Below, one piece after another: positions 3,222-60,785 of a stretch of 64,000 bases of DNA; position 1 is the first letter of the stretch, and every line of letters begins with the position of its first letter. The translations under genes and the position numbers were made by a program. This stretch comes from Prauserella halophila (GTDB taxonomy: Bacteria > Actinomycetota > Actinomycetes > Mycobacteriales > Pseudonocardiaceae). Where the stretch lies: NCBI RefSeq assembly GCF_024171895.1, contig NZ_JAMTCQ010000009.1:533318-597317 (forward strand), read 5' to 3'. The notes under the pieces are model-generated. The model was not told the DNA's origin. It did not search any database and saw nothing but the letters and a program-made list of their open reading frames with translations.

Positions 3222-3668
3222 TCAGCCGTTGCCGAGCGCCAACCGGGACGACACCTCGCCGATGGCGTCCTGGTACTCGGCCTGCGGATGCATCGCCGAG
3301 GCCATCCGGAGCTGGCCGAGGGCTTCGGCGAGTCTGCCGAGCCGTTGCAGGGTCTTACCGAGTACGAACCGGGCGTAGTGGTCGGACGGGTCGTGCTCGA
3401 TGACTTTGCTCAGGGCGTGCTCGGCCCTTCGCAGTTGTGCGGAATGAAAGTAGGCACGCCCCGCGAGCAACTGGACGCTCGGCTTGTCGTGTTCGGCCTC
3501 GAGCACCGGTTCGAGCGCATCGAGCGCGTCGAGCGGACGACGCCGTTTCACCAGTTCCTCGGCTCGCCGGAATGCGTGGACAGGAGAGTGGCCCACGTCC
3601 GCCGGCTGCCGGCCGGAAGTCCGCGCAGGGCCTGCCGGAGGTGGGTTCGATGGCGTCGATTCACCCAT
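3222..3668 (-). CDS. TPR repeat protein
   Basis: Small cytoplasmic protein of 148 aa. After a Pro-rich leader of about 30 aa it contains three tetratricopeptide-like helix pairs (RAEELVKRRRPLDALDALEP, then YFHSAQLRRAEHALSKVIE, then FVLGKTLQRLGRLAEALGQL). TPR units mediate protein-protein contacts; the partner is not apparent from the sequence. It is transcribed against its neighbours and sits alone between the transglycosylase and a VOC gene. Confidence 0.8.
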   Translation of the reverse strand: MGESTPSNPPPAGPARTSGRQPADVGHSPVHAFRRAEELVKRRRPLDALDALEPVLEAEHDKPSVQLLAGRAYFHSAQLRRAEHALSKVIEHDPSDHYARFVLGKTLQRLGRLAEALGQLRMASAMHPQAEYQDAIGEVSSRLALGNG

Positions 3669-3822
3669 GGTTCAGCGACGGTACCCGCGTCGGAGGCGCT
3701 TATCGAGACCTTGACTCGGCACCGAATCGATGATCGCCCCGGTGGGTCCGGTGCGCGGCGGGTGCCGGCACCGGCCGGGGTCGTGATAGCCGGCGATCGT
3801 TCGTGTGGTGGACTAGCCCGCC

Positions 3823-4392
3823 ATGAGCGACCCCGCGATGAGTAATGACGGCCCGAGGTATCTCGGGATCGCGCCGTACCTCTACTACACGGACGCCACC
3901 GAGGCGGTGGAGTGGCTCACCCGCGTCTTCGGGTTCACCGAGAAGGTTCGCTACGTCGACGCGGTGGGCGAGGTGTTCCAGGCGACCCTGAACGCGGGCG
4001 GCTCCGACATCCACCTTGCCGGTGTCGGTGACGAGTACTGGCCCGCGAAGGGCGTCGACGGCCCGGTGGGCCAGCTGAACGTGGTGTACGTCGACGACGT
4101 CGACGCCCAGTTCGAGCGGGTCAACGACACGGTCGGCGACGGCTTCGAGGTGTCGCGTCCGCAGGACCAGCCCTACGGGGCGAGGCTGTTCACGGTGCAG
4201 GACATCGGCGGAAACGGCTGGACGTTCTGGCAGCACATCTCCGACATCGCCGATCTGCCGGCGGGCTGGCGGGAGATCCGCAACGGCGAAACCGTCTCCG
4301 GTGGAGACCCGGCCGGAACCGCCGACGGCACCGGCGCGGGTGACGGCGAGGCGGACAGCGAAGCCGGGGCCGGTGAATCCGCTGCAGGCTGA
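3823..4392 (+). CDS. VOC/glyoxalase-fold protein
   Basis: Protein of 189 aa. Residues 10-130 form a vicinal-oxygen-chelate fold of the PhnB/YybH-like group: YLGIAPYLYYTDATEAVEWL begins the first beta-alpha-beta-beta-beta unit, and GYGARLFTVQDIGGNGWTFW-like residues end the second. The C-terminal 45 aa are Gly/Asp/Ala-rich and probably disordered. The substrate cannot be named; such proteins include glyoxalases, resistance proteins and dioxygenases. ATG 3823 is used; a second Met five codons later is possible. Confidence 0.8.
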   Translation: MSDPAMSNDGPRYLGIAPYLYYTDATEAVEWLTRVFGFTEKVRYVDAVGEVFQATLNAGGSDIHLAGVGDEYWPAKGVDGPVGQLNVVYVDDVDAQFERVNDTVGDGFEVSRPQDQPYGARLFTVQDIGGNGWTFWQHISDIADLPAGWREIRNGETVSGGDPAGTADGTGAGDGEADSEAGAGESAAG

Positions 4393-5883
<1,491 letters not shown>

Positions 5884-8670: not shown

Positions 8671-9624
8671 ATGCCTCGTGTAGCCGCCATCGACTGTGGG
8701 ACCAACTCGATCCGCCTGCTGGTCGCGGAGCTGACACACCGCCACGACGGCAGTGTCGACCTGCGTGACCTGCACCGGGAGATGAAGGTGGTGCGGCTCG
8801 GTCAGGGCGTGGACGCCACGGGCCGGCTCGCACCGGAAGCGCTGGAGCGCACTCGGGAGGCGTTGGCTTCCTACGCGGTCGCGGCCCGGAGAAAGGGCGC
8901 CGAGAAGGTGCGCATGGTCGCCACGTCGGCGACCCGCGACGCGAGCAACCGCGACGAGTTCTTCGCCATGACCCGCGAGGTGCTCGGCGTGGAAGCGGAG
9001 ATCATCACCGGAGACGAAGAGGCGCGCCTGTCGTTCACCGGTGCCGTGGGCGAGCAGGACCCTGACGACGGGCCGTTCCTCGTCGTGGACGTCGGCGGCG
9101 GGTCGACCGAGCTCGTGCTGGGCACCTGGGACGGTGCGCAGGCCGAGATCCTGGGCGCCAAGTCCGTCGACATCGGGTGCGTGCGCCTCACCGAGCGGGC
9201 GTTGCCGAACGACCCGCCGACCGCCGAGGACGTCGATACCGCCCGCGGGGTCGCGCGCGAGGTGCTGGCCGAGGCGTTCGAGGTGGTCGACGTCGCGAAG
9301 GCGCAGACGTGGATCGGTGTGGCGGGAACGATCACCACGCTGTCGGCGCTCGCTCAGGACCTGCCGGAATACGATTCGCAGGCCACACACCTGTCGCTGC
9401 TGTCGCACGCCACGGTCGATCGCGTCACCGCCGAGCTGCTCGCCGCCGACCACGACGCGCGCGCGGCCCGGAAGGTCATCCACCCGGGCCGGGTCGACGT
9501 CATCGGAGCGGGCTCAGTCGTCGTGCAAACGCTTGCCGAGGAGCTGCAGGCCCGCGGCGGCCCCGATTCCCTGGTGGTCAGCGAACACGACATCCTCGAC
9601 GGCATCGCACTGTCGCTGGCCTGA
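8671..9624 (+). CDS. ppx: Exopolyphosphatase / pppGpp phosphohydrolase (Ppx/GppA)
   Basis: ASKHA-fold phosphatase of 317 aa that removes terminal phosphate from polyphosphate or pppGpp. The N-terminal phosphate loop AAIDCGTNSIRLLVAEL and second loop VDVGGGSTELVLG are intact, and VAGTITTLSAL forms the third nucleotide-site element. It is the short two-domain form, like Rv1026, without the HD domain of E. coli Ppx. ATG 8671 is used because it starts immediately before the conserved core; 8626 is an in-frame alternative. Confidence 0.93.
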   Translation: MPRVAAIDCGTNSIRLLVAELTHRHDGSVDLRDLHREMKVVRLGQGVDATGRLAPEALERTREALASYAVAARRKGAEKVRMVATSATRDASNRDEFFAMTREVLGVEAEIITGDEEARLSFTGAVGEQDPDDGPFLVVDVGGGSTELVLGTWDGAQAEILGAKSVDIGCVRLTERALPNDPPTAEDVDTARGVAREVLAEAFEVVDVAKAQTWIGVAGTITTLSALAQDLPEYDSQATHLSLLSHATVDRVTAELLAADHDARAARKVIHPGRVDVIGAGSVVVQTLAEELQARGGPDSLVVSEHDILDGIALSLA

Positions 9625-16275: not shown

Positions 16276-16349
16276 GCCCCCGTAGCCCAACCGGCAGAGG
16301 CAGTCGGCTTAAAACCGATCCAGTGCGGGTTCGAACCCCGTCGGGGGCA
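16276..16349 (+). tRNA. tRNA with anticodon UAA and a short variable loop
   Basis: A 74-nt cloverleaf: acceptor GCCCCCG/CGGGGGC, D arm with GCC/GGC, anticodon stem GTCGG/CCGAT with loop CTTAAAA (anticodon TAA), variable region CCAGT, T arm GCGGG-TTCGAAC-CCCGT, discriminator A. CCA is not encoded. The anticodon reads the leucine codon UUA. However, the variable region is only five bases, while bacterial leucine tRNAs are class II with a long variable arm. Automated callers would label it tRNA-Leu(UAA). Its true charging identity is uncertain. Confidence 0.9.
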
Positions 16350-39121: not shown

Positions 39122-40741
39122 ATGAGTGCTCCGCAGCCACCGAACCAGCCAGGGGGTGGCGAGCAGCAGCCGCCGGAGGGGCCGCCGAGTGGTTCCCAGC
39201 CCGCCCAGGACGGTCCGTTCGAGTCGGCCGAGCCGACGCAGGTCGTGCAGCCTGGCCAGTCGGATCAGGGTGGCGAGACGCCCCAGCATCCTGCCGACCA
39301 GGGTGGCGAGGCGACGCAGGTCGTCCAGCCTGGACAGGCCGGCCAGCAGGCGTCACCGCAGGGCGGCGGCTCCGAGTCGACGCAGCTGGTGTCACCCGAC
39401 ATGCAGCCGCAGGCGTCGATCCCGTACGCCCCGCCGCCGAGTGCGGCCGACAACCCGGCTGCGGTGAACCCCCAGGGCTACGGCGCTCCACAGGGCTACG
39501 GCGCTCCACAGGGCCAACAGGGCTTCGACCCCTCGCAGGGCCAGCCGGGCGGTTTCGACCCGTCACAGGGGCAGCCCGGCGGGTTCGCTCCGGCGCAGGG
39601 GCAGCAGGGCTTCGGTGCACCCGGTCAGCCGGGTGGGTTCGACCCGGCGCAGGGCCAGCCGGGTTTCGGGGCACCCGGCCAGCCGCCGCAGGGCTACGGC
39701 CCGCCTCCCGGGCAGCCGGGTGGCTTCGGCGCTCCGGGCCAGCCGGGTGGGTTCGACCCGGCGCAGGGCCAGCCGGGTTTCGGGGCACCCGGCCAGCCGC
39801 CGCAGGGCTACGGCCCACCTCCCGGGCAGCCGGGTGGCTTCGGTGGTCCGCCTCCCGGCCAGTTCGGTGGCCAGCCCGGCTTCGGCGGCCAGCAGGGTGG
39901 CGGCAACGAGACGACGAAGATCATCTCGTGGGTTATCGCTGGTGTCCTTGCCTTGCTGGCAGCCATTTCGCTGATCGTGAACCTCGTCCAAGTGATCGAT
40001 ATGGCGAACGCGACTTCCAGTGCGAGTTCCCGCGCGAGCGAGATGGGTTCGAGCTGTGAGGGGCTGTCGGGGCCGGCTGCGGAGATGTGTAACCGGACGG
40101 CTGAGTCGGCGCAGCGGGCTGCCGAGGATGCCGGTCCCGGTGCTGGGACGATCATTCTCTGGATCTTGTTGCTGCTCGCCCTGGCCGGCACGGTCGCCGG
40201 ATCGGTCTTCGTCTTCCTGCGGAAGACGTTCCAGCACTTCATTTACCTCGGTTCGGGAGCAGTGCTGGCCGTCTTCGCGATCATTGTCGGCGCCATGTAC
40301 CTATTCGCTGGCGGCATCGTCTTCAACATGATCATTGGTTTCGTCGCGATTGCTGCTGGTGTGCTCGGTTTCTTCCCGCAGACACGCGAGTACGTGGGGT
40401 TGCCGGCCGGCCCCGGCGGCCCGGGTCAGCCCGGCGGCCCTGGTGGTCCCGGCGGCTTCGGGCAGCCGCCGCACGGCCAGCCCGGCGGGTTCGGCCCGCC
40501 GCCGCAGCAGCCCGGTCCGCCCGGTGGCTTCGCCCCGCCGTCCGGTGGGTTCGCCCAGCCCGGTGGTCAGAACCCGCCGTCCGGTGGTTTCGGCCAGCCT
40601 GGTGGGCCCAACCCGCAGTCGGGTGGCTTCGGTGCTCCCGGTCAGCCGCCGCAGCAGCCGGGGCAGCCCGGTGGCTACGGTCCGCCGCCGCAGGGGCCGC
40701 CGCCCGGCCAGCCGCCGCAGGGCCCGCCGCCGCAGTGGTGA
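39122..40741 (+). CDS. Pro/Gln/Gly-rich multi-pass membrane protein (Pra-like)
   Basis: Protein of 539 aa between cbs and metB, the place of the proline-rich antigen gene Rv1078. The first 260 residues are repeats of [14 protein letters not shown]-type sequence. Residues about 265-450 hold four transmembrane helices ([72 protein letters not shown]) with a loop between the first two that contains two Cys. The last 90 residues are again Pro/Gly-rich. ATG 39122 is used. A 114-bp near-perfect duplication lies at 39631-39845. Function unknown. Confidence 0.8.
39631..39845 (+). repeat. 114-bp near-perfect coding repeat, about 1.9 copies
   Basis: The 38-residue unit starting [20 protein letters not shown] is encoded twice with very few base differences, offset by exactly 114 bp. 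This in-frame duplication lies in the Pro-rich domain of the membrane protein and is likely to vary in copy number. Confidence 0.8.
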
Positions 40742-43699: not shown

Positions 43700-45507
<1,808 letters not shown>

Positions 45508-45587
45508 CCAGGAAGAAGCACAGCCGACGGCAGGCGTCCGAGGCGCGCCGTCCGGGGCCTGTCCACCGGGCGACGTGCCGCGTGGCG

Positions 45588-49181: not shown

Positions 49182-49236
49182 CGGCCGGGCGGTCGTCAGG
49201 CGAACAGGAACCTGTGCCCGGACGGCAGTCGCACGG
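49182..49236. repeat. Left copy of the 55-bp direct repeat (putative attL/attR)
   Basis: Identical in all 55 bases to 57765-57819. It duplicates the last 41 bases of the VOC gene, stop codon included, plus 14 bases beyond. Here it is detached from any VOC gene, 13 bases after the Rv1083-like gene. This is the structure left when an element integrates at the 3' end of a gene. Confidence 0.9.
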
Positions 49237-49256
49237 GTGCTGAAGCTTGATGTTGT

Positions 49257-49490
49257 TCATCTGGTCAGGAGGCGGGTCATGACCCGTCCGCTGATGTCGA
49301 GCGCGTTGTTCAGCTGTCCTTGAAAGGGGCTTGGGAGCATGCCGGTATCGAGTCCGGAGTCGTGTCGGACCGATTCCAACGCCGTGACTTGCGCGGCGGA
49401 GAGCCGGTTCCGGGCCGTGTCGAGCAGCTCGCGCGCTGCGTAGCCGTCGGCGGAGCGCAGCACCTGCGAAAACGGTTCTTTATCCAGCAA
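49257..49490 (-). CDS. Doubtful 77-aa hypothetical protein
   Basis: A stop-to-stop frame with a TTG start encodes EPFSQVLRSADGYAARELLD and RVMTRLLTR. No domain is recognised and no ribosome site is clear. It may be a fragment of a helical protein. It sits between the left repeat and the DUF397 gene. The following 190 bp (49491-49682) contain nothing I can identify. Confidence 0.3.
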   Translation of the reverse strand: MLDKEPFSQVLRSADGYAARELLDTARNRLSAAQVTALESVRHDSGLDTGMLPSPFQGQLNNALDISGRVMTRLLTR

Positions 49491-49682
49491 GCGCGATTAC
49501 CCGGGCATCGTAAGAACATAAGTTCGATCAGACGTGCAATCCGGCCCGCCCGGGGGGCGGAGACGAGGACTGCTTCGGCCGGGCGCACCGCGTGCTGCCC
49601 CGAGTCGCTGCGGGCTCTATGCCGCCCCTGGTCTGAAACCACGGAAGCACCCGGCGCACCAGCCATACAAGATCGGATCCCA

Positions 49683-49724
49683 AAAGATCGGCCACCCGCC
49701 GCAGTGGTCGGGTGGCCGATCTTT
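49683..49724 (-). terminator. Terminator of the left DUF397 gene
   Basis: A perfect 16-bp inverted repeat (AAAGATCGGCCACCCG and complement) with a 10-nt loop; on the minus strand it runs into TTTT. It lies 13 bases after the DUF397 stop codon. Confidence 0.88.
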
Positions 49725-49737
49725 GCTCGCTTGCCGT

Positions 49738-50100
49738 CTAGCTTGCGGCAAGCGTCGCCACGGAAGAAGGCGTGAACTCGCCGGCGATGACACCGAGCCG
49801 GAAGGCCGTCCATTCTTGCTGGCTGAACGCGAGCGTTGCGCCCGTGGTCGGTTCGTGGACGAGCCATGTGCTCTCACGAGTGGTAACGGTTACCGCGCCG
49901 TTGGTGTTGGTGATGTCGTCGACGATCTCGCCAAGCCAGTGTGACCATTGCTCGAAGCTGAAGCGGATCACCGGGCTCTCGGTGATCTTGTCGTCTCTGA
50001 CCTCTACTCCTTCGTCGGTGAAATCGACCTCGACGCAACCGTTGTGCTGTGCCGAGTACGACGACTTCCGCCACCCTGCGCGGCTGTGTGCGGTAGGCAT
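49738..50100 (-). CDS. DUF397 protein with two tandem units
   Basis: Protein of 120 aa. The first unit, AGWRKSSYSAQHNGCVEVDF, is a classic DUF397 start; after a degenerate linker a second unit ends WLVHEPTTGATLAFSQQEWT plus AFRLGVIAGEF, the usual end of the domain. Most DUF397 proteins have about 65 aa and one unit. They are encoded next to XRE/DUF5753 regulators, as here (17 bases apart), and are thought to act with them in actinobacterial development. GGAGGACATC precedes the ATG. Confidence 0.85.
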   Translation of the reverse strand: MPTAHSRAGWRKSSYSAQHNGCVEVDFTDEGVEVRDDKITESPVIRFSFEQWSHWLGEIVDDITNTNGAVTVTTRESTWLVHEPTTGATLAFSQQEWTAFRLGVIAGEFTPSSVATLAAS

Positions 50101-50116
50101 GATGTCCTCCGGTGAT

Positions 50117-50968
50117 TCAGTACGCATCGAGGCGTGCCCTGATCGCCTCAGCCGTTTGTGTCTCCGTCCAGGCGTGCTCTTCACGCAGTCGGGCGACGAT
50201 TCGAGTGTAACCGTCGACCTCTTCTTGATCTTGCACGTAGATCGCACCGTTGAGCAGCTCTACGTATGCGACTGCCTGCGCCGCAGAGAACTCCAGCAGC
50301 GTGAACGGCCCGGTGGTGGCGTCATGAAGGCCAATCGAGGTCGGCAGCACCCGTAGCTCGATGTTCGCGCGCTCTGCCGACGTGATCAGGTGTTCAAGCT
50401 GGGCACGCATCGTCTCAGGTGTGCCGATCGGCCGATCGAGCACCGACTCCTCGATGAACGCAGTGAGGTGCAGGGGCTCGGTCTCCGCGTAGAGCCTCCG
50501 CTGTCGCTCCATTCGCAGATTCACCGTGCGCTCGGAGTGATCGGGCCGAACGCGCCCGGACCCTTGCGTCACACCGAGCGAATAGCCCTCGGTCTGTAGC
50601 AGAGCAGGCACGACCGCGGTTGCATAGTCAGTCACCCGCGACGCGAGGCCCTCCAAGCCGACGAAGGTCCGCAACCAGTCCGGGACCACGGCTGTCCACG
50701 GCGCCCACCACGTCTGCTGGTCAGCGCTCGCCGCGAGGCTCGCGAGCCGATCGATATTGGCCTGATCAGCATCGTAGAACCGCAGCAGCTCCGTAACCTC
50801 GGACGGCTGCTGCTGGTTACGGCCACCCTCCAGGTGGCCGACCTTCCCTGGCGAGCACCCGATCGCCTTCGACGCTGCAGTGATCGTCTTCCCTGCTCGC
50901 TTGCGGTAGTTGGTGAGTTCAACACCAACGAGCCAGCGCAGCGCCGACGGGTCGCCCCGATCTGCCAC
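50117..50968 (-). CDS. XRE-family regulator with DUF5753 domain
   Basis: Protein of 283 aa. An N-terminal helix-turn-helix (LTNYRKRAGKTITAASKAIG, recognition CSPGKVGHLEGGRNQ) is followed by a DUF5753 ligand-like domain of about 180 aa: VPDWLRTFVGLEGLASRVTD, PALLQTEGYS, FTLLEFSAAQAVAYVELLNG. This is the standard actinobacterial Scr1/WhiJ-like regulator paired with DUF397. It diverges from the rightward island operon and may repress it through palindromes near 51060. Confidence 0.9.
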   Translation of the reverse strand: MADRGDPSALRWLVGVELTNYRKRAGKTITAASKAIGCSPGKVGHLEGGRNQQQPSEVTELLRFYDADQANIDRLASLAASADQQTWWAPWTAVVPDWLRTFVGLEGLASRVTDYATAVVPALLQTEGYSLGVTQGSGRVRPDHSERTVNLRMERQRRLYAETEPLHLTAFIEESVLDRPIGTPETMRAQLEHLITSAERANIELRVLPTSIGLHDATTGPFTLLEFSAAQAVAYVELLNGAIYVQDQEEVDGYTRIVARLREEHAWTETQTAEAIRARLDAY

Positions 50969-51049
50969 CGGTCTACCTCCGATTCGTCTCCGCTGCCGTA
51001 GTCAGTTTGCACGTAGCGGCACAGCGAAGAACATACCGTGGCCTGATCG

Positions 51050-51112
51050 GAGTATAGACGTACGTAAAATTCTACGTACGATCATCTTAGTGCGGTTATA
51101 CAGAAGATCGTA
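51050..51112. promoter_or_regulatory. AT-rich region with nested palindromes between XRE gene and operon
   Basis: CGTACGTA-AAATTC-TACGTACG (51059-51080) is a perfect inverted repeat; GTACGATC at 51077 and GATCGTAC at 51107-51114 form a second, wider pair. The surroundings (TATAGACGTACGTAAAATTC) are among the most AT-rich in the window. This is the natural place for operators of the XRE protein and promoters in both directions. The rest of the 291-bp gap shows nothing else. Confidence 0.65.
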
Positions 51113-51259
51113 CGCCGGGTTGGCGGGACGAGGGTCGAACCCCGAGTTCGACCAGCAGGACCCCGCCGACTCGGCAGTCGTGGGACCCGGGCTAGCTCCC
51201 CTGGCCTGGCTCGGGCCCCACGGCATCCAGAAGATGAACCAACCCTTGATCGGGGACCG

Positions 51260-51685
51260 ATGGGGAACCGCAGCCTCAGAACAGCTTCGACGCGACCGTT
51301 TGCAGTAGCAATTCAGTACTCCGCCACCAAGCAGCAGCAACTTGCGGTGAGCGACCCGGAAACCGCATTCGGCGCGCTGTTGGAGCTTCTCCGCGAAACA
51401 CCGGAGGACGCGCATGGCGGTTGGGGAGTCGCGGCCGACTGGCCCGAGCCGATTTCGCTCGTCGTTCGCTACCGCCCCGGCGTCGTCGGCGAAACCCGAC
51501 GTGTCGCGCACGTCGTGCCGATGAGGCCCGGCGAGTGGCACGACTACACCCTCACGGCTTGGGGCGGAACGGCACTCGACGTTCCTGAACTGGAGTTCCT
51601 CGCTCCAGGGAAAGGAATGCCCCGCGTTGAATGCATTCGTCGAACCCCGATCCCGCACGTGCCTCCCAAGGAGGTGCAGGCATGA
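51260..51685 (+). CDS. Unrecognised island protein, first gene of the operon
   Basis: Protein of 141 aa with GGGGACC before ATG 51260. Residues 25-95 look like a small alpha/beta fold (LAVSDPETAFGALLELLRET, then WPEPISLVVRYRPGVVGETR), and the C-terminus is VECIRRTPIPHVPPKEVQA. No family is recognised and there is no signal peptide or membrane segment. Its stop overlaps the next start (ATGA), so it is coupled to the rest of the operon. Confidence 0.65.
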   Translation: MGNRSLRTASTRPFAVAIQYSATKQQQLAVSDPETAFGALLELLRETPEDAHGGWGVAADWPEPISLVVRYRPGVVGETRRVAHVVPMRPGEWHDYTLTAWGGTALDVPELEFLAPGKGMPRVECIRRTPIPHVPPKEVQA

Positions 51686-51909
51686 CCGAACTGCCCGATC
51701 GACGAGAGCCGGGAAGCCGCCTGGCCGCGCCGCTCCGCAGTAACTCCGGTGCTGTCAGAGCCGGCGTGATCACACCTGCCGAACCGCTGTGGCCCAGCAC
51801 CGACCCGGAAGCCACCGGAGATCCCTACGCAGATCACCTTCAGCACGTGCTCGACGGGCTCAATGCGCTGGGCACGCCCAACGATGAGCAGGAAGGACTA
51901 CACCGTTGA
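51682..51909 (+). CDS. Small unrecognised island protein (75 aa)
   Basis: Overlaps both neighbours by four bases (ATGA before, TTGA after), which strongly supports translation. The sequence is hydrophilic: REPGSRLAAPLRSNSGAVRA, then a C-terminal helix DPYADHLQHVLDGLNALG. Not recognised. A small coupled gene next to glycosyltransferases could encode a peptide substrate or an accessory protein; there is no Cys, and Ser/Thr occur mainly in the first half. Confidence 0.6.
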   Translation: MTELPDRREPGSRLAAPLRSNSGAVRAGVITPAEPLWPSTDPEATGDPYADHLQHVLDGLNALGTPNDEQEGLHR

Positions 51910-52283
51910 CCGCGACCGCAGATCCGGCGACGATCCCGCAGTTTGGAACCGAGATCCCGCTGCTGGAGCTACAGCACGTCGACCTCGACGAACGTCCTGC
52001 CTATGTACCGAGACACCTCGACCGGTTCGACGTTCGAGGATTGATTGCCGATGCGCACCCCGAGATCGACCAAGCACACCAGTTCCACCGCGCGCGGCGC
52101 GAGATCGTGCACGCCTACCGCGATCGCATCAATGGGGCGTGGGTGATCGCCTTCGAGCGACTCGACGCACAGTTCGGAGTCGTCAAAGAGTTCGGTGAGA
52201 CTTCGCTGTGGGACAAGATCCTCTCTCTGGTCGGCATGTGGAATGCCGCCGGACGGCCCGCCGACCACCGCTCGCTTCGCTGA
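51906..52283 (+). CDS. Unrecognised island protein (125 aa)
   Basis: Starts at TTG 51906 inside the preceding stop. A Pro-rich start leads to a mostly helical protein (LIADAHPEIDQAHQFHRARR, IVHAYRDRINGAWVIAFERL, GETSLWDKILSLVGMWNAAG). No domain is recognised. A 40-base gap separates it from the glycosyltransferase gene, the largest gap within the operon. Confidence 0.6.
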   Translation: MTATADPATIPQFGTEIPLLELQHVDLDERPAYVPRHLDRFDVRGLIADAHPEIDQAHQFHRARREIVHAYRDRINGAWVIAFERLDAQFGVVKEFGETSLWDKILSLVGMWNAAGRPADHRSLR

Positions 52284-52323
52284 CATTCGTCAAACCCGCG
52301 GGGACCATCGAAGGGATTGAGCT

Positions 52324-53229
52324 GTGAAGGTATCGGCGAGCGTCATTGTTGCCGTGCACGGAAACACCAACGAGGTCGACGGGCTGCTGCGATGCCTGGC
52401 GACGCAGGACTTTCTTCGGGATATCGAGGTCGTCGTGGTGGACAACCACCGGCGGCCATACGTCCCGCCGACGCTGCTGGCCGAGGCCGGGTTGTCCGGG
52501 ACCGTGGTCCACGAACCGCGGACAGGACTGAGCCGAGCCCGCAACACTGGTGTGGGCCACGCACGCGGCGAGTACGTCCTGTTCACGGACCCGGACTCCC
52601 GGCCCGAACCGGGATGGGTCCGCGGCTTGGTGGAGGCCCTGACGACCACGGGCGCCTACTGCGCCGGCGGCCGGGTCGAGTCGCTGTTCACCGACCTCAA
52701 CGAGCGGCCGGACCTCGACGCGGGGATCGAGCAGTTCTTCGTCCCCGACGCCTGGCCGGAACGAACCTGCGCCCTGCGGGCACCGTTCTGGCTGCTCGGC
52801 TGCAACCTCGCCACGAGATCCTCGCCGCCGCCAGTGTTCGATGAGCAGCTCGGCGCTCGCCCCCGCCGACATCTGTCGTGCGAGGACCTGGAACTGAGCA
52901 TTCGCGTCGAGCACGCCGGACTCGCGGTGATCGTAGTCCCGGACGCACTCGTGCATCGAGCCATCCATTCCGCCGATCTTCGCCTGCCGCGGGTGTTGGC
53001 CCGTGCCTTCTGGCACGGAGTCTCGATCGCTCGGGTTCGACACAGGCACCCGAATGCCGTGATCTACGACAGCGCGCAGGTGGCCGACGTGCTCGGCGAG
53101 TTCCGTCGCGAGCACTGGCGCACCGCAGCGACACACCTGGCCCGGATCGCGGGCTGGCGGTTGGAAGCCCTGCGGCCGACCCGCAGCACGCCCGCCGCTG
53201 GCGAGGACGAGGTGGTGATGAGCCGATGA
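52324..53229 (+). CDS. Family 2 glycosyltransferase
   Basis: GT-A enzyme of 301 aa. The nucleotide-binding start is SASVIVAVHGNTNEVDGLLR, followed by VEVVVVDNHRRP-like strand, GLSRARNTGVGHARGEYVLF and the metal-binding variant DPDS in FTDPDSRPEPGW. The acceptor half has RPRRHLSCEDLELSIRVEHA, a typical ED catalytic base motif (CEDLEL). It should transfer a sugar from a nucleotide donor to an unknown acceptor in the cytoplasm. GTG 52324 starts the domain. It overlaps the next gene (ATGA). Confidence 0.88.
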   Translation: MKVSASVIVAVHGNTNEVDGLLRCLATQDFLRDIEVVVVDNHRRPYVPPTLLAEAGLSGTVVHEPRTGLSRARNTGVGHARGEYVLFTDPDSRPEPGWVRGLVEALTTTGAYCAGGRVESLFTDLNERPDLDAGIEQFFVPDAWPERTCALRAPFWLLGCNLATRSSPPPVFDEQLGARPRRHLSCEDLELSIRVEHAGLAVIVVPDALVHRAIHSADLRLPRVLARAFWHGVSIARVRHRHPNAVIYDSAQVADVLGEFRREHWRTAATHLARIAGWRLEALRPTRSTPAAGEDEVVMSR

Positions 53230-55376
53230 CCGCGCACCCGTGGTCGGCTGTGGAAAGCGCACCGACGGTGGCAGTACTGTTCGACACCGCCGGATTCCTG
53301 CGCACCCTGCCGATAACCGGCGCCGCCGCCCGCACGGCACGGTTGAACCAGTGGCTTCACCATCACGGCGCCGACACCACGCTGCTGCTGTGCGATTTGA
53401 ACCCGGATTCGCGGCCGAGCGGAGCGTGGCCGCTGCCGGTGCGCTACCTGCCGTACGAGAGCGTCTACGAGCATCCGCAACGGCTGCGGCTGCATCTGGC
53501 TGAACTCGCGCCGGACGTGCTGGTCATGTCCAACACCCAGCTGACCGTGCGCTACGGCCGCGAGCTGGCCGACTCCGCCGGCTCGGCCCTGATCTACGAG
53601 CTGCACGACGACGAAGCCGCCCTGCTGTGCTCGATCGGCGACGAGGGGCACGACGACGCGGCCGTGTTGCAGGCGGCCGCCTGCGCCGCCGCCGACGGCG
53701 TGATCACCTTTACCGAGCGGGACGCCACGACCGCCCGCGCGCTCGGCGCAACCGCCGTTCACGTGGTGCCCTGCGGCGTCGACCCTGGCCCACCTCCGAT
53801 CCCACAGCCGGGCACCGCGGCGCGGGTCGTGTTCGTCGGTAACATGTACTACGAACCGAACCGCCGCGCGGTGCAGTGGTTGCACGACGTGCTCGCCCCC
53901 GCACTGCCGAACGGGGTCGTCATCGAGATCATCGGCCGGTACCCTTCCTCACTGCGGGCGCTGGCCGACCGGCTCCGGCTGCGCGGCCCGGTGCGCGACC
54001 TGCGGACGGTTCTGGAGACCGCGACCGTCGCCGTGGCTCCACTCGACACCGGCGCCGGGATGAAACTCAAGGTGCTCGACTACCTCGCCGCCGGCCTCCC
54101 GGTCGTCGGGACTGCCGAGGCGTTCGTCGGCATCGGTGAGCCTGAGCAGTGGGCGGTCGAGACCGGTCTCGCGGAGTTGCCCGAGCAGGTCGACGCACTC
54201 TTGCACGACGAAGTGCGGCGCCGCCGCTTGGGCAAGCAAGGACGCCGCCTGGTCGAGCAGCGCTATTCGTGGTCGACGCACGCCAGCAACGCGCGCGCCG
54301 CCTACCGCGCCATCGCCGAGCAGTACCGAACCCACCCGCGAGGCACGCCGCCGGGTGCGGCCGCGCGCGAACTCGCCGCGACCCCACCCTACTGGCTGCG
54401 CGAATGGCGCAGCCGCCGCACCACCCGCCCGACGACCACACACAAGGACCCAGGACGCGGAATGAGTGACTACACCACCGGCAACGATGACAGCATCGTC
54501 GGCGAGCTGGCCGAAGACATCGACTGCGCCCGGGTGGCTGCCGAAGCGGCCCTCGACCTGAAGTTCACCGAGAACGCCATCGTCGGCTACGGCCAGCGCA
54601 GCATGGTCTTCCTCGCTGAGACGGCCGTGCTCAAGGTCTACACCGACCGCGGGCAGGAACGGGCCTCCCGGGAATCGGCTGGCCTGCGCGTCGCCGCGCA
54701 CGCCGCCGACCTGTGCATCCCTGACGTCCTCGCCCATGACGAGATGCCCGGTCACCTGTCCTGGCTGGCCTGCACCCGCCTGGCCGGAACCCAGCCCGCA
54801 CCGGACGTGGAGAACACGACTCCGATCCTCGGCCAGGTCGCCGCCCGCCTGCACACCCTGCCGACCCACCGCTTCGACGAGCTGACCGGGCACCGCCGAC
54901 GGCTGCGCGAGCTGCCCGACGGCGCTACCCTGCCGCACCAGGCCGCGCGACAGCTCGACGCCGCGCTCGCCGAGATGGCCCCGCTCGCCGAGCAGCACTG
55001 CACCCGCGGGTTCGTGCACGGCGACTGCTCCAGTCGCAACGTCCTGCTCGCCGACGGCCAGTCTCCCGGCGTCATCGACTTCGAAGGCTCCGGTTCCGGC
55101 TGCTGCTACGACGATCTCGCCGCGTTGGTGCTGCACGAAAGCCTGCTCGGCCCCCGCGATCGGCACGCCCTGCTGGACGCCTACGACACCGAACGTCGCC
55201 GACTGGACCCGGCAGCGGCCGCAGTCCGCGGCGAGCACCTCGCCTATCACCTGGTGATCCGAGCCCGGTGGATCATGCAATGGGCCATCGACCTCGACCC
55301 CGACCTGGCCGCCGAGATCACCGAACTCACGCCGTGGCTGCTCACCGCGCTCGCCGGCACCGAGGAGGTCCGGTAA
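53226..55376 (+). CDS. Fusion of a GT4-type glycosyltransferase and an APH-type kinase
   Basis: One open frame of 716 aa. Residues 10-360 form a GT-B glycosyltransferase: AARTARLNQWLHHHGADTTL at the start, RVVFVGNMYYEPNRRAVQWL, then the donor-site VLDYLAAGLPVVGTAEAFVG. Residues 430-710 form an aminoglycoside-phosphotransferase-like kinase: VFLAETAVLKVYTDRGQERA (ATP lysine), HGDCSSRNVLL (catalytic loop) and VIDFEGSGSGCCYDD (metal Asp). M413 (ATG 54462), in MSDYTTGNDD, could serve as an internal start giving a separate kinase. No stop separates the two halves. Confidence 0.85.
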   Translation: MTAHPWSAVESAPTVAVLFDTAGFLRTLPITGAAARTARLNQWLHHHGADTTLLLCDLNPDSRPSGAWPLPVRYLPYESVYEHPQRLRLHLAELAPDVLVMSNTQLTVRYGRELADSAGSALIYELHDDEAALLCSIGDEGHDDAAVLQAAACAAADGVITFTERDATTARALGATAVHVVPCGVDPGPPPIPQPGTAARVVFVGNMYYEPNRRAVQWLHDVLAPALPNGVVIEIIGRYPSSLRALADRLRLRGPVRDLRTVLETATVAVAPLDTGAGMKLKVLDYLAAGLPVVGTAEAFVGIGEPEQWAVETGLAELPEQVDALLHDEVRRRRLGKQGRRLVEQRYSWSTHASNARAAYRAIAEQYRTHPRGTPPGAAARELAATPPYWLREWRSRRTTRPTTTHKDPGRGMSDYTTGNDDSIVGELAEDIDCARVAAEAALDLKFTENAIVGYGQRSMVFLAETAVLKVYTDRGQERASRESAGLRVAAHAADLCIPDVLAHDEMPGHLSWLACTRLAGTQPAPDVENTTPILGQVAARLHTLPTHRFDELTGHRRRLRELPDGATLPHQAARQLDAALAEMAPLAEQHCTRGFVHGDCSSRNVLLADGQSPGVIDFEGSGSGCCYDDLAALVLHESLLGPRDRHALLDAYDTERRRLDPAAAAVRGEHLAYHLVIRARWIMQWAIDLDPDLAAEITELTPWLLTALAGTEEVR

Positions 55377-55378
55377 CC

Positions 55379-56206
55379 GTGCTGGTAATCGACGGGATGC
55401 CCGGCGCCGGCAAGACCACAACACTCGGCACCGTAATCGCCCGGTGCTCCGAGGTCGTGGTCTTCCCCGAGGCCCAGCCACCCGAGCGCGGCGACGATGA
55501 CACCGTGATGCGGCGTCTGCTGGCCGAGGACTACGCCCGCACCGAGGCAGCACACCGCATCCGGACACACAGCCCGCACCGACTGGTCGCTTCCGACCGC
55601 TGCCACCTCGGCGTGTTCGCCTACCGCTACGCCCTGGCCCGGCTCACCGGAGAGTGGGCCGACTTCGAGCGCGCCCTGACACGCGGCCGCGAACTCGCGC
55701 TCGACGAACGTCACCACGACGACATCGTGCTGATCCTGCACCTCGACCCTGACAAGTCTCTGCGTCACCGCCGCGGCCGCGCCGGTGACCCGCGATACCG
55801 CACCTGGTACGACCCGGTCTTTCTCACCTACTACGCCGAGTTCTTCCGCGATCTGCACCGGTGGACCGAACCCGGTCCACACTGGGCACACCACCATGCC
55901 GCCGACCCAACCATCAGCGCCACCCTCCACGCGCTGCTGCCCACGCCGATAACACCGCCAGCGGCAGCGAACGGCGACCTGCACTGCGGCCGCGACTGCG
56001 GCAGCCCCCGCTCGGCCACGGTCGCCACCCCTGATGCCGCGGCACAACTGTGGAGTCGCGGCCTGCACCACCAACGTCCCGGCGAAGGAGTCCGCTGCCT
56101 GCGCGGCGCCGCCGCGATCACCGCACATACAGGAGATCTCGCCGATGAGCGATCCCAGCGGCGCCGCCAACCGCACCCTGCTGGCGACATTGGCGCGCGC
56201 ACCTGA
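55379..56206 (+). CDS. P-loop kinase-like protein (thymidylate-kinase-like)
   Basis: Protein of 275 aa from GTG 55379, with GAGGAGG upstream and a 2-base gap after the fusion gene. The Walker A motif is IDGMPGAGKTT (5-15); ASDRCHLGVFAYRYALA resembles the DR(Y/H) substrate motif of nucleotide kinases, and LHLDPDKSLRHRRGRAGDPR the lid region. It probably phosphorylates a small molecule or nucleotide. The last 80 residues are Pro/Ala/Arg-rich and overlap the next gene by 62 bp, so the fold probably ends near residue 190. Confidence 0.78.
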   Translation: MLVIDGMPGAGKTTTLGTVIARCSEVVVFPEAQPPERGDDDTVMRRLLAEDYARTEAAHRIRTHSPHRLVASDRCHLGVFAYRYALARLTGEWADFERALTRGRELALDERHHDDIVLILHLDPDKSLRHRRGRAGDPRYRTWYDPVFLTYYAEFFRDLHRWTEPGPHWAHHHAADPTISATLHALLPTPITPPAAANGDLHCGRDCGSPRSATVATPDAAAQLWSRGLHHQRPGEGVRCLRGAAAITAHTGDLADERSQRRRQPHPAGDIGART

Positions 56207-56540
56207 CCCGCACGCACTCGAAGCATGGGCGGCCCCCGCGCGCGAGGCCGCCGACGCGATCCGCGATCATCTCATCGGCGCTGGTCAGCATGGTCACGCC
56301 ACTGTGGCCTTTAGCGATCTGCACCGCTGGCGCAGCAGCTTGGATGCCGCTCTGGACCAGCTCGCGGCCGACGACCCCGACCTGTGGCAGCAGTGGCGCC
56401 GGCCCGGCACGTGGCTCGATGCACTGCTGCGACTGCGTTCCCTCATCGCCCACGTGCTCGGCAAGGCGTACTGGGACTCCCGCGAGCACGTTCCCTACGC
56501 CGACATGGACGTGCCCCGCTACCTCTGGGGCGCCCGATGA
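56145..56540 (+). CDS. Unrecognised helical island protein (131 aa)
   Basis: ATG 56145 is preceded by AGGAGATCTC. The protein is mostly helical and Trp/Ala/Arg-rich: AANRTLLATLARAPDPHALE, AWAAPAREAADAIRDHLIGA, TWLDALLRLRSLIAHVLGKA, ending ADMDVPRYLWGAR. I know no family. It starts inside the kinase tail and its stop overlaps the EIIB start (ATGA), so it belongs to the operon. Confidence 0.7.
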   Translation: MSDPSGAANRTLLATLARAPDPHALEAWAAPAREAADAIRDHLIGAGQHGHATVAFSDLHRWRSSLDAALDQLAADDPDLWQQWRRPGTWLDALLRLRSLIAHVLGKAYWDSREHVPYADMDVPRYLWGAR

Positions 56541-56827
56541 CACCACCGGAGAAGCCCAACGTGGACAAATACACCCGCACGGCCGCATACCTGGTTGCCT
56601 TGCTCGGCGACGCCGAGAACGTCGTCGCGGTGACCTACTGCGTCACCCGGTTGCGCATCACCCTGGCCGACCGCCAGGCCGTCGACGACAGCGGCCTCCA
56701 GCAGCACCCGGCCGTTCTGGGCCGTCTCGACGGCGACGACGCCCTCCACCTCATCGTCGGCCCCGCAGCCGCCGCGCCGCTCGCGCGGGCGTGCACCGAC
56801 CTCCTCGCACTCCCATCAGGGGAGTGA
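56537..56827 (+). CDS. Free-standing PTS EIIB domain (glucose/sucrose family type)
   Basis: Protein of 96 aa matching the PTS EIIB fold: DKYTRTAAYLVALLGDAENV, then VAVTYCVTRLRITLADRQAV, then HPAVLGRLDGDDALHLIVGP. The phosphorylated cysteine is in YCVTRLR, where standard EIIB has NCxTRLR; the following Thr-Arg-Leu-Arg is intact. In ordinary systems this domain is fused to an EIIC permease. Here no EIIC or EIIA is present, so it may be a phosphoryl acceptor or regulatory relay for the neighbouring kinases and glycosyltransferases. Confidence 0.88.
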   Translation: MTPPEKPNVDKYTRTAAYLVALLGDAENVVAVTYCVTRLRITLADRQAVDDSGLQQHPAVLGRLDGDDALHLIVGPAAAAPLARACTDLLALPSGE

Positions 56828-57334
56828 ATCTGGCGGCACATCGCCGGAGAGGAACAAGGCGTGCCAAAGCCGGCACGTTGTTGGGAAGGAGGGCGGAATG
56901 GCCACCGCATCCCCACTCAGGGGTTCGTCAACGATCCTGTGGTCTCGATCAGCGGCCAGATGGCGCTGGCGCGGCTCGATGACCTGGTATGCGAAGACCA
57001 GCTCTCACCGGAGGACGTGCGCCCGTGGAACCTGCGGCGTATGGGATCGCTCATGACCACCAACGGCCGGTGGTCGTCGGTCATCTACGACCACAACCAG
57101 CAGGTCGCGGTCACCGCATCCGGGCAGCCGGCGCTCGACGAGCACCGGCGGAGTGGTCGGACCGGTCGCCGGCCCGCCGACCGGTCCGACCACTCCGCCG
57201 GTGGATGGCGAAGACTCCCCCGAGTAGCGAAGACTGGATCAACGACTTCGCGCCGAGGAGCCCAGCCCGGCATGACGGTTCTCATCCTTGCTGGCGAAAG
57301 GCGATCCAGGCATGGCCTACCTGGAGTTGGTCAA
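56828..57334. other. Unassigned stretch in the right part of the island
   Basis: About 500 bp between the EIIB gene and an XRE fragment. A frame from 56861 stays open to 57463 (200 aa), but only its last 42 residues resemble a known domain and the middle runs through a 24-bp inverted repeat. It includes ISGQMALARLDDLVCEDQLS and VRPWNLRRMGSLMTTNGRW, which I do not recognise. It is probably decayed coding DNA around a terminator. Confidence 0.4.
57144..57202 (+). terminator. 24-bp perfect inverted repeat, probable operon terminator
   Basis: The arms (ACCGGCGGAGTGGTCGGACC plus GGTC, and complement) are identical over 24 bp and flank an 11-nt loop. It is the strongest stem in the island, lies about 320 bp after the EIIB gene and precedes a regulator remnant. 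No T run follows. It could also be the end of a lost insertion element. Confidence 0.65.
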
Positions 57335-57463
57335 CACTGGCTCTACCTCGAGGAACCCGAGGAAGTGGCCCTGTATGAGCGCACTCTGCGTCACGTCCAC
57401 GCCTTGGCCGCCAACCCCGAAGAGTCACGGGGGATCATTAAGAGCGCCATGAAGGAGGTGTGA
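57335..57463 (+). pseudogene. C-terminal remnant of an XRE/DUF5753 regulator
   Basis: The last 42 codons encode YLEEPEEVALYERTLRHVHA then NPEESRGIIKSAMKEV, the standard C-terminal end of DUF5753 regulators (YLEDPEEVxxYxxxFxxLxxxAxxPxxSRxLI). The helix-turn-helix and most of the domain are missing. A DUF397 gene starts three bases after its stop, the normal arrangement for an XRE-DUF397 pair, so the front of the regulator has been deleted. Confidence 0.7.
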
Positions 57464-57466
57464 GAA

Positions 57467-57685
57467 GTGATCAACAACGTGCACGATGTGCTGGAGCCTG
57501 AGCGGGTCGTCTTCCGCAAGTCGTCTTACAGCGGCGAGAACGGCCAGTGCGTCGAGGTCGGCCAGGCCGCCGATGGCGGCCGGTGGCTGAGGGACAGCAA
57601 GAGCCCTGCCAGTCCGCCGTACTACTTCACCGCAGGTGAATGGGACGCCTTCATCCGAGGCGTCAAGGACGGCGAGTTCGACTAA
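57467..57685 (+). CDS. DUF397 protein (single unit)
   Basis: Protein of 72 aa, the usual length: VVFRKSSYSGENGQCVEVGQ, then LRDSKSPASPPYYFTAGEWD and AFIRGVKDGEF, both ends of the DUF397 consensus. GGAGGTGTGA precedes GTG 57467. Its partner XRE gene is reduced to a remnant, so it may be an orphan or work with the intact XRE protein at the other end of the island. Confidence 0.88.
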   Translation: MINNVHDVLEPERVVFRKSSYSGENGQCVEVGQAADGGRWLRDSKSPASPPYYFTAGEWDAFIRGVKDGEFD

Positions 57686-57711
57686 CCACGAACACGCTGA
57701 ACGCGAGTGAA

Positions 57712-57752
57712 CGAGGCCCTCCCGGCCAGCCCGGGTGGCCGGGAGGGCCTCG
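57712..57752 (+). terminator. Terminator after the right DUF397 gene
   Basis: A perfect 17-bp inverted repeat (CGAGGCCCTCCCGGCCA and complement) with a GCCCGGG loop, 27 bases after the stop codon and just before the right direct repeat. Confidence 0.85.
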
Positions 57753-57764
57753 TGTTGTGAGCTC

Positions 57765-57819
57765 CGGCCGGGCGGTCGTCAGGCGAACAGGAACCTGTGC
57801 CCGGACGGCAGTCGCACGG
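57765..57819. repeat. Right copy of the 55-bp direct repeat
   Basis: Identical to 49182-49236. It includes the final 41 bases of the VOC gene (minus strand) with its stop codon at 57779-57781 and 14 bases beyond. This copy is the one still attached to its gene. Confidence 0.9.
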
Positions 57820-58408
57820 ATGCGAACGTCGTGCACGGCCGGTCGCCGACCTGGATGACGGCCGTCCATCCCGGCGGTTCGGCGCTTCGGGTGCTGAACA
57901 CGGCGCCCGTCATGGACAGGCCGAGTCGGCCGCGGTAGAAGCCGGCCGCCGTGGTCGGGGTGATCGACGTGTGCACCATGCGCCGCGGGGTACCCGCGCC
58001 CACCGCATGCGTCCAGCCCGCGAACGTACCGGGTTCCCACAGCGAGACGGCCGCACCGAACGGGTCGACGACGGTGGCGAGTACGCCCAGGTCTCCGATC
58101 GGCGACGGCGGGACTACCGAGGTGGCGCCCGCGGCGACGGCGGCGTCGTGCACGCGGGTGGCGTCGTCGACGGCCACGTAGTAGCCCACGTGGGGTTCGG
58201 TCCCCGGCGGACAGGCCCCGCTGTGGAGGCTGCTCAGCCCCGCCATCCAGTGGCCCTCGAACCGGGCTTTCCGTGCCGTCGCGGGATCGCGGTGGTCGTC
58301 CGGGTCGACGACGCATTCCCAACCCAAGGCGGTATCCAGTTCCCGCCCCGTCGCGTCGAGGTCGGGCGTCTTGATGTCCATCCAGCAGAACTCGCCGGCC
58401 GGGCGCAT
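57779..58408 (-). CDS. Two-domain VOC-family protein (island target gene)
   Basis: Protein of 209 aa from ATG 58408. Two VOC modules are visible: GEFCWMDIKTPDLDATGREL to AAVSLWEPGTFAGW, and MVHTSITPTTAAGFYRGRLG to SVRLPSGHRFLFA. The fold is that of glyoxalase/bleomycin-resistance-like proteins; the substrate is unknown. Its 3' end forms the right direct repeat, so the reading frame is unaffected by the island. Confidence 0.85.
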   Translation of the reverse strand: MRPAGEFCWMDIKTPDLDATGRELDTALGWECVVDPDDHRDPATARKARFEGHWMAGLSSLHSGACPPGTEPHVGYYVAVDDATRVHDAAVAAGATSVVPPSPIGDLGVLATVVDPFGAAVSLWEPGTFAGWTHAVGAGTPRRMVHTSITPTTAAGFYRGRLGLSMTGAVFSTRSAEPPGWTAVIQVGDRPCTTFASVRLPSGHRFLFA

Positions 58409-58520
58409 ATCGAGGATGGTGACCGTCCGGCCGGTCCGCTGCAACCGGAAGTGACGGGCCGTCGGGTGCGTGGAGGCGGGCACACGTGCGTGGCACCCGG
58501 CGACAGGGGAGACTCTCGGT

Positions 58521-60548: not shown

Positions 60549-60596
60549 GCCCGGTGGCCGGGTCCCGGTGCCGCCGTCCCGGTGCCGCGGTGTCGA

Positions 60597-60652
60597 GCCG
60601 CAGTGGGTCAGTCGCAGTGGGTGAGTCGCAGTGGGTGAGTCGCAGTGGGTGA
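60597..60652. repeat. 14-bp tandem repeat GTCGCAGTGGGTGA, four copies
   Basis: Three perfect copies (60611-60652) follow one with two changes; a broken copy continues to 60660. It lies in the 237-bp gap between the YyaL-like gene and the acyl-CoA dehydrogenase gene, where I see no gene. Confidence 0.85.
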
Positions 60653-60785
60653 GTCGCAGTGTCGAACTGCAGTGCCGAGCCGCGGTGGATGACCGTGGTT
60701 CCCGCGGCGGGTGACTGTGGTTCCCGCGGAGGGGGCGGGAGCGTGTCGCAGTGCGCCCGCCGGGATCGTTCGGCACGCTGGCGGC

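Follow-up and report, generated by a model that had tools for sequence, protein, structure and literature searches.

A cargo island inserted at the 3' end of a VOC gene in Prauserella halophila, probably the remnant of an integrative element

In a stretch of 64,000 nucleotides from Prauserella halophila (assembly GCF_024171895.1, contig NZ_JAMTCQ010000009.1, positions 533,318 to 597,317; hereafter the window), an exact 55-bp direct repeat at 49182-49236 and 57765-57819 brackets 8.5 kb of sequence, which we call the island. The right copy lies over the 3' end of an intact VOC/glyoxalase-like gene (57779..58432, minus strand; Pfam glyoxalase matches below cut-off), and the left copy stands alone, with no gene attached to it. 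An earlier note on this DNA had described two identical 55-bp copies, the left one severed from its gene, and both observations were confirmed. The exact length stands as well, but the duplicated block is better stated as 59 bp, as the homology passes a single mismatch (G49237 versus A57820). It then comprises an attL-like left repeat at 49182..49240, a stray copy of the VOC 3' end, and an attR-like right repeat at 57765..57823 (neither assigned to a strand), the latter consisting of the last 15 codons of the VOC gene, including the stop, and the 14 bp beyond it.

This repeat is not a product of chance: in each of 20 first-order Markov sequences the longest exact repeat reached only 16-19 bp, and the other repeats of the window are closely set. 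Indeed, among the 15 exact direct repeats of at least 20 bp in the window, the 55-bp repeat alone has copies more than ~1 kb apart; the others of at least 22 bp have copies less than 120 bp apart, and two 21-bp matches are spaced 0.9-1.0 kb. Neither is it a dispersed sequence, since a 61-bp query hit these two places and no other in the genome (5,050,536 bases in 16 contigs, E ≤ 0.001). The island lies on a contig of 1.32 Mb (C2), and the only tRNA gene of the window, at 16276, is far from it.

A search for the VOC gene with its repeat covered 60 genomes, six of which belong to other species of the same genus (G001-G006), and gave strong matches in five of these congeners (G002-G006). The island is absent from all six, and in the five that hold the VOC gene a single-copy site lies between the left neighbour and that gene. 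In G003, G004 and G005 the left-flank match continues through the repeat, and this single copy also serves the VOC gene that comes next; in G002 and G006 it has a gap of ~130-180 bp where the left gene ends and picks up again at the single copy. In G001, ~0.7 kb separates the left-flank genes from the thioredoxin-domain gene, which in P. halophila lies to the right of the VOC gene, with no match to either the VOC gene or the island. For the island interior, none of the six yielded a counterpart: a 210-bp stretch of G005, at 70% and within the helix-turn-helix (HTH) gene, is the best match, and the remaining nine measure 26-66 bp each. The earlier note had named as its test a single-copy empty site in relatives and a repeat that is not dispersed; both were borne out, and the left neighbour runs into the VOC gene in these five congeners. 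Because congeners carry a single-copy site and lack any counterpart of the interior, the island was inserted, at the VOC 3' end, and left that gene whole.

The target gene is itself nearly confined to the genus, with matches in 7 of 200 genomes of the family at 1e-40 (its own, five congeners and one match at 47%). In a narrow literature search, no title or opening of an abstract named a VOC or glyoxalase gene as an integration site. The names mca and Rv1083 are those of the earlier note; the mca-like gene encodes a PIG-L family protein according to Pfam. Other length differences occur nearby: at 45488-45586, to the left of the left-flank genes, G003 has ~3.2 kb and G004 ~3.7 kb of extra sequence, and at 58450-58477, between the VOC and thioredoxin-domain genes, G005 and G006 carry ~1 kb extra with an open reading frame (ORF) that by eye is acetyltransferase-like.

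Congeners also help to read the repeat itself. Both copies carry T at 49238/57821, where four congeners have C and one has G, so the homology runs past the mismatch, and the duplicated block ends no earlier than 49238 and probably at 49240. At the mismatch (49237/57820), all five congeners have G, as does the left copy, and the change therefore occurred in the VOC-side copy, where it exchanges proline for serine in the frame of the gene. Counted inward from the stop codon over 45 positions, the congeners show 6-8 differences from the right copy and 5-7 from the left, whereas the two island copies show one difference over the same positions and are alike at 58 of 59 bp overall. Considering that the copies differ at 1 of 59 positions and the congeners at 5-8 of 45, the source of the second copy, as judged from these alignments, must be this species or something very close to it. 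Such a source would be expected if the element circulates within the species, and no less so if the host's own sequence was duplicated when the island was inserted.

Within the repeats, 15 ORFs (two of them mechanical calls only) were scanned with Pfam, and 10 of the 15 with PADLOC and PHROGs. The left end holds three minus-strand genes: a 77-aa C-terminal stub (49257..49490), a DUF397 protein (49738..50106; PF04149) and an XRE regulator with HTH_31 and DUF5753 domains (50117..50968), whose match to the Sco1979-like NCBIfam model is below cut-off. On the plus strand there follow three small proteins, of 141 aa (51260..51685, no family), 92 aa (51631..51909, no family) and 125 aa (51906..52283), the last weakly resembling the C-terminal part of TIGR04188 (22.8 bits against a cut-off of 380). 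Next come a family 2 glycosyltransferase (52324..53229; PF00535), a protein in which Pfam finds glycosyltransferase group 1/4 domains and an APH-type phosphotransferase in one frame (GT-APH; 53226..55376), a P-loop kinase-like protein whose Pfam matches are all below cut-off (55379..56206), a conserved 131-aa protein of no family (56145..56540) and a stand-alone EIIB domain of the phosphotransferase system (PTS; 56537..56827; PF00367). The right end, still on the plus strand, is occupied by a degenerate XRE/DUF5753 C-terminus (56861..57463), inside which lies a 30-bp inverted repeat (57143..57203, unstranded; 97% complementary, 1 nt between the arms), and by a second DUF397 protein (57467..57685).

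The EIIB domain retains its cysteine (position 35, in the motif CVTRLR), which is invariant in all four sequences compared; it stands alone in a glycosyltransferase operon, with no PTS permease among the scanned ORFs of the island. PADLOC gave no match, and PHROGs assigned families to both regulators and to one DUF397 protein and otherwise gave only a weak glycosyltransferase match. GC content is 67.5% in the interior, with 63.8% in the left 3 kb, and 69.6% and 71.4% in the flanks. With low confidence, we read the cargo as a small biosynthetic or tailoring pathway under its own regulation, one that would glycosylate and phosphorylate a secondary metabolite or a peptide. The 125-aa protein was considered as a methyltransferase domain for a ribosomally synthesised and post-translationally modified peptide, and comparison with the FxLD methyltransferase of G067, a genome of another genus, gave nothing convincing (best E 0.009, by its G067 relative). 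Elsewhere in the window, an exact 77-bp repeat with copies 114 bp apart lies at 39626-39816, and arrays with periods of 10 bp and 14 bp lie at 158-227, near the window start, and at 60595-60664.

No gene that could have moved the island was found within it. Searches in six frames (E ≤ 0.001) gave eight hits to PF00589 (tyrosine recombinases) in the genome, none in the island or on its contig, and a single hit to PF00239 (serine recombinases), on contig C7, again with none in the island or on C2; the earlier note's remark that no recombinase is visible inside therefore holds at profile level for both families. Among the 15 interior ORFs, Pfam matched no integrase, relaxase, TraB or replication (Rep) gene, which also disposes of a complete actinomycete integrative and conjugative element (AICE), whose integrase, Rep and TraB genes were sought by Pfam on these ORFs and by the PF00589 search. 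A prophage was rejected too, as PHROGs found no structural or replication phage genes in the 10 ORFs scanned and no phage record matched 49600-57400. By blastn, this same interval had one 54-bp match in plasmids. The att core, as a degenerate pattern, had 0 matches in viral contigs; in the two pairings searched, the left repeat with its flank was not found in plasmids, nor the right repeat with its flank in phages. At the protein level, GT-APH had five partial matches in plasmids, at 13-21% coverage, the family 2 glycosyltransferase matched three phage records at 26-35% identity, and its profile gave 34 candidate stretches in viral contigs, none of them confirmed.

Sequence has been lost or disrupted near either end of the island, inside the repeats. 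On the left, the 77-aa stub ends 16 bp inward of the repeat and only its C-terminus remains, the N-terminal part being gone; its relatives, mechanical ORFs of 369-586 aa, occur in 11 of 249 genomes of the family, its own included, the best at 51% over 63 aa (a 369-aa ORF in G097), and one of them is fused to a thiopeptide-type bacteriocin domain (L078). A G067 protein beside FxLD genes, considered as a further member of this stub family, has no match to the stub. On the right, the DUF5753 similarity of the degenerate regulator is divided over two frames, at 57300-57359 and 57344-57460. These broken genes offer a simple reason why an integrase is missing.

Relatives of the cargo are few, and they lie at other loci. 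GT-APH is matched in 6 of 346 genomes of the family at 1e-60: its own and five of one other genus. Three of these (G067, G174 and G200) hold the genes from the 125-aa protein to EIIB in the same order and orientation, at 47-71% at the amino acid level, with 47-54% for the 125-aa protein, 68-69% for the family 2 glycosyltransferase and 66-68% for the 131-aa protein. A divergent XRE regulator, at only 30-35%, stands upstream in all three; the 141-aa protein is matched in G067 alone (56%), the 92-aa ORF in none, and the DUF397 partner in G174 and G200 and not in G067; the right-hand DUF397 protein is at 61% to the DUF397 proteins of the G174 and G200 loci. G174 shows a duplication of its DUF397 gene, accompanied by an exact repeat of 179 bp with copies 1.9 kb from each other (L070 reverse complement 3284-5395). 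A stop separates glycosyltransferase and APH in G200, and the matches in G174 and G067 also contain one stop; the GT-APH fusion was seen in the source genome only. In the remaining two genomes, G188 and G100, the match is limited to the APH part. These partial copies adjoin 28-30-bp repeats that are CRISPR-like by form, and the G067 contig has CRISPR-like repeated motifs ~13 kb beyond its full block (across these genomes, L073 reverse complement 9271-9474; L074 8845-8934; L095 7347-8996). That block lies between a TIGR03299 phage/plasmid-like gene and an FxLD lanthipeptide run, which comprises an FxLD-system methyltransferase, two thiopeptide-type proteins and a protein with lanthionine-synthetase similarity below cut-off. 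In wider samples, GT-APH was found in 1 of 394 genomes of the class and the kinase in 1 of 386 genomes of the phylum, in both cases its own, and as these samples missed the positives of the other genus they are no proof of absence. Among GTDB contigs GT-APH had one distant locus, at 27%, in a single-sequence scan that finds close relatives only and is no measure of distribution.

How, then, did the island arrive? We think it probable that an integrative element once inserted at the VOC 3' end, most likely by means of a tyrosine recombinase, and that the island is what remains of it after loss of the integrase. The element would have entered the 3' end of this actinobacterial VOC gene with an attP that brought a copy of the gene end; the VOC gene on the right would have stayed intact, and the left side would have kept a stray attL copy. 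An internal deletion would later have removed the integrase and any transfer genes, so that a regulated cargo would be left between two att copies, akin to a cis-mobilisable element (CIME), perhaps still able to excise and mobile only if another element supplied the recombinase. From the earlier note's claim of site-specific integration into a protein gene, the insertion at the VOC 3' end stands, and a recombinase as its agent is still what we infer. A serine integrase as the inserter was rejected: attB and attP of serine integrases are normally alike only at a short core, and an identity over 55 bp speaks against one.

Several observations weigh against a decayed integrative element. With copies that differ at a single position, attP would have to come from the same or a very close species, and no relative was found with an integrase at the VOC site. 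Within the island itself no remnant of an integrase or transfer gene was found, only their absence. Nor do the relatives of the cargo bring one into view: of the three genomes that hold the full block, G067 has no PF00589 hit on that contig, and in G174 and G200 the hits are roughly 250-300 kb away; only near the partial copies are they closer, at ~2.5 kb (G188) and 10-14 kb (G100). The 20 kb examined in G200 contain no exact direct repeat of at least 18 bp, and those of at least 18 bp in G067 and G174 do not flank the block.

The main rival, which we regard as a less likely but serious contender, is an insertion without any site-specific recombinase, in which the VOC gene broke and took up a linear or circular piece of foreign DNA, with 59 bp duplicated from the host, be it through end joining with long-stagger fill-in, template switching, or a single crossover over a short shared stretch. 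It holds this place because the second copy must derive from this or a very close species: a host-copied duplication predicts precisely the near-identity of copies that agree at 58 of 59 positions, including the 14 non-coding bp and T49238, which none of the five congeners has, and it would need no integrase, none having been matched. However, the site falls exactly at the 3' end of a gene that remains whole, which is the usual signature of an integrase site, and 59 bp is unusually long for a fill-in duplication. We would give distinctly less credence to a more far-reaching proposal, namely that the VOC end is the att site of an unseen, genus-confined family of elements, with the island a passenger moved in trans within the species, and that its cargo is an undescribed glycosylation and phosphorylation pathway in which the lone EIIB domain takes part in the chemistry or its control.

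It is very improbable that there was no insertion and that the region is ancestral, lost from the relatives by recombination between the repeats. Such recombination would yield the same empty-site structure, but with all six congeners lacking the island it would have to have happened in each of them; moreover, matching cargo in the other genus has different neighbours, and the left copy is a gene fragment. Least probable of all is an assembly artefact joining unrelated sequence at the 55-bp repeat, as might be feared of a genome in 16 contigs, for the flanks lie together on a single 1.32-Mb contig, each collinear with the congeners, and the repeat, found in two copies, offers no third place for a mis-join.

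A decayed integrative element would have company among known systems. CIMEs, as defined in PMC5704250, are elements that have lost integration and transfer genes and have kept attL and attR, and the island fits that description in three respects: two att-like repeats, presumably recombinase sites, flank the island at the 3' end of one target gene, the cargo is kept, and there is neither an integrase of its own nor any transfer gene. As to an origin by deletion, genes are broken near both ends, with no integrase or transfer remnant; unlike the CIME situation, no integrase-bearing partner element was found at the VOC site. TR1 of S. scabiei is presented as a CIME case in Streptomyces (PMC8369830), and 15 ssrA islands of Dehalococcoides without integration modules have been suggested as CIMEs (PMC3146451). 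In Streptomyces, the account in PMC9513070 places 14 of 51 integration sites in protein genes and describes AICE remnants with cargo and truncated integrases between two direct repeats; since such decayed elements are described there, the absence of a recombinase here is not strange. The island shares with them cargo between two direct repeats, a protein-gene target and empty sites in relatives, whereas the remnants of that account keep partial integrases and a complete sister element at the same site, neither of which was seen here. PAISt of Streptomyces turgidiscabies likewise integrated at the 3' end of a protein gene, bacA, but, as reported in PMC4057263, at an 8-bp palindromic site and as a large island shown to excise in modules. 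By these comparisons, the island would fit a CIME-like or decayed-AICE remnant, a kind already described, of which it is a good example, and not a new kind of system.

What it does provide is a clean case of the gain of a cargo cluster by an actinobacterial genome, in which the target, the duplication, the empty sites and the signs of decay are all visible together. The cargo is rare in the genomes sampled, and the island is better seen as a starting point for natural-product work than as a mobile element of a new kind.

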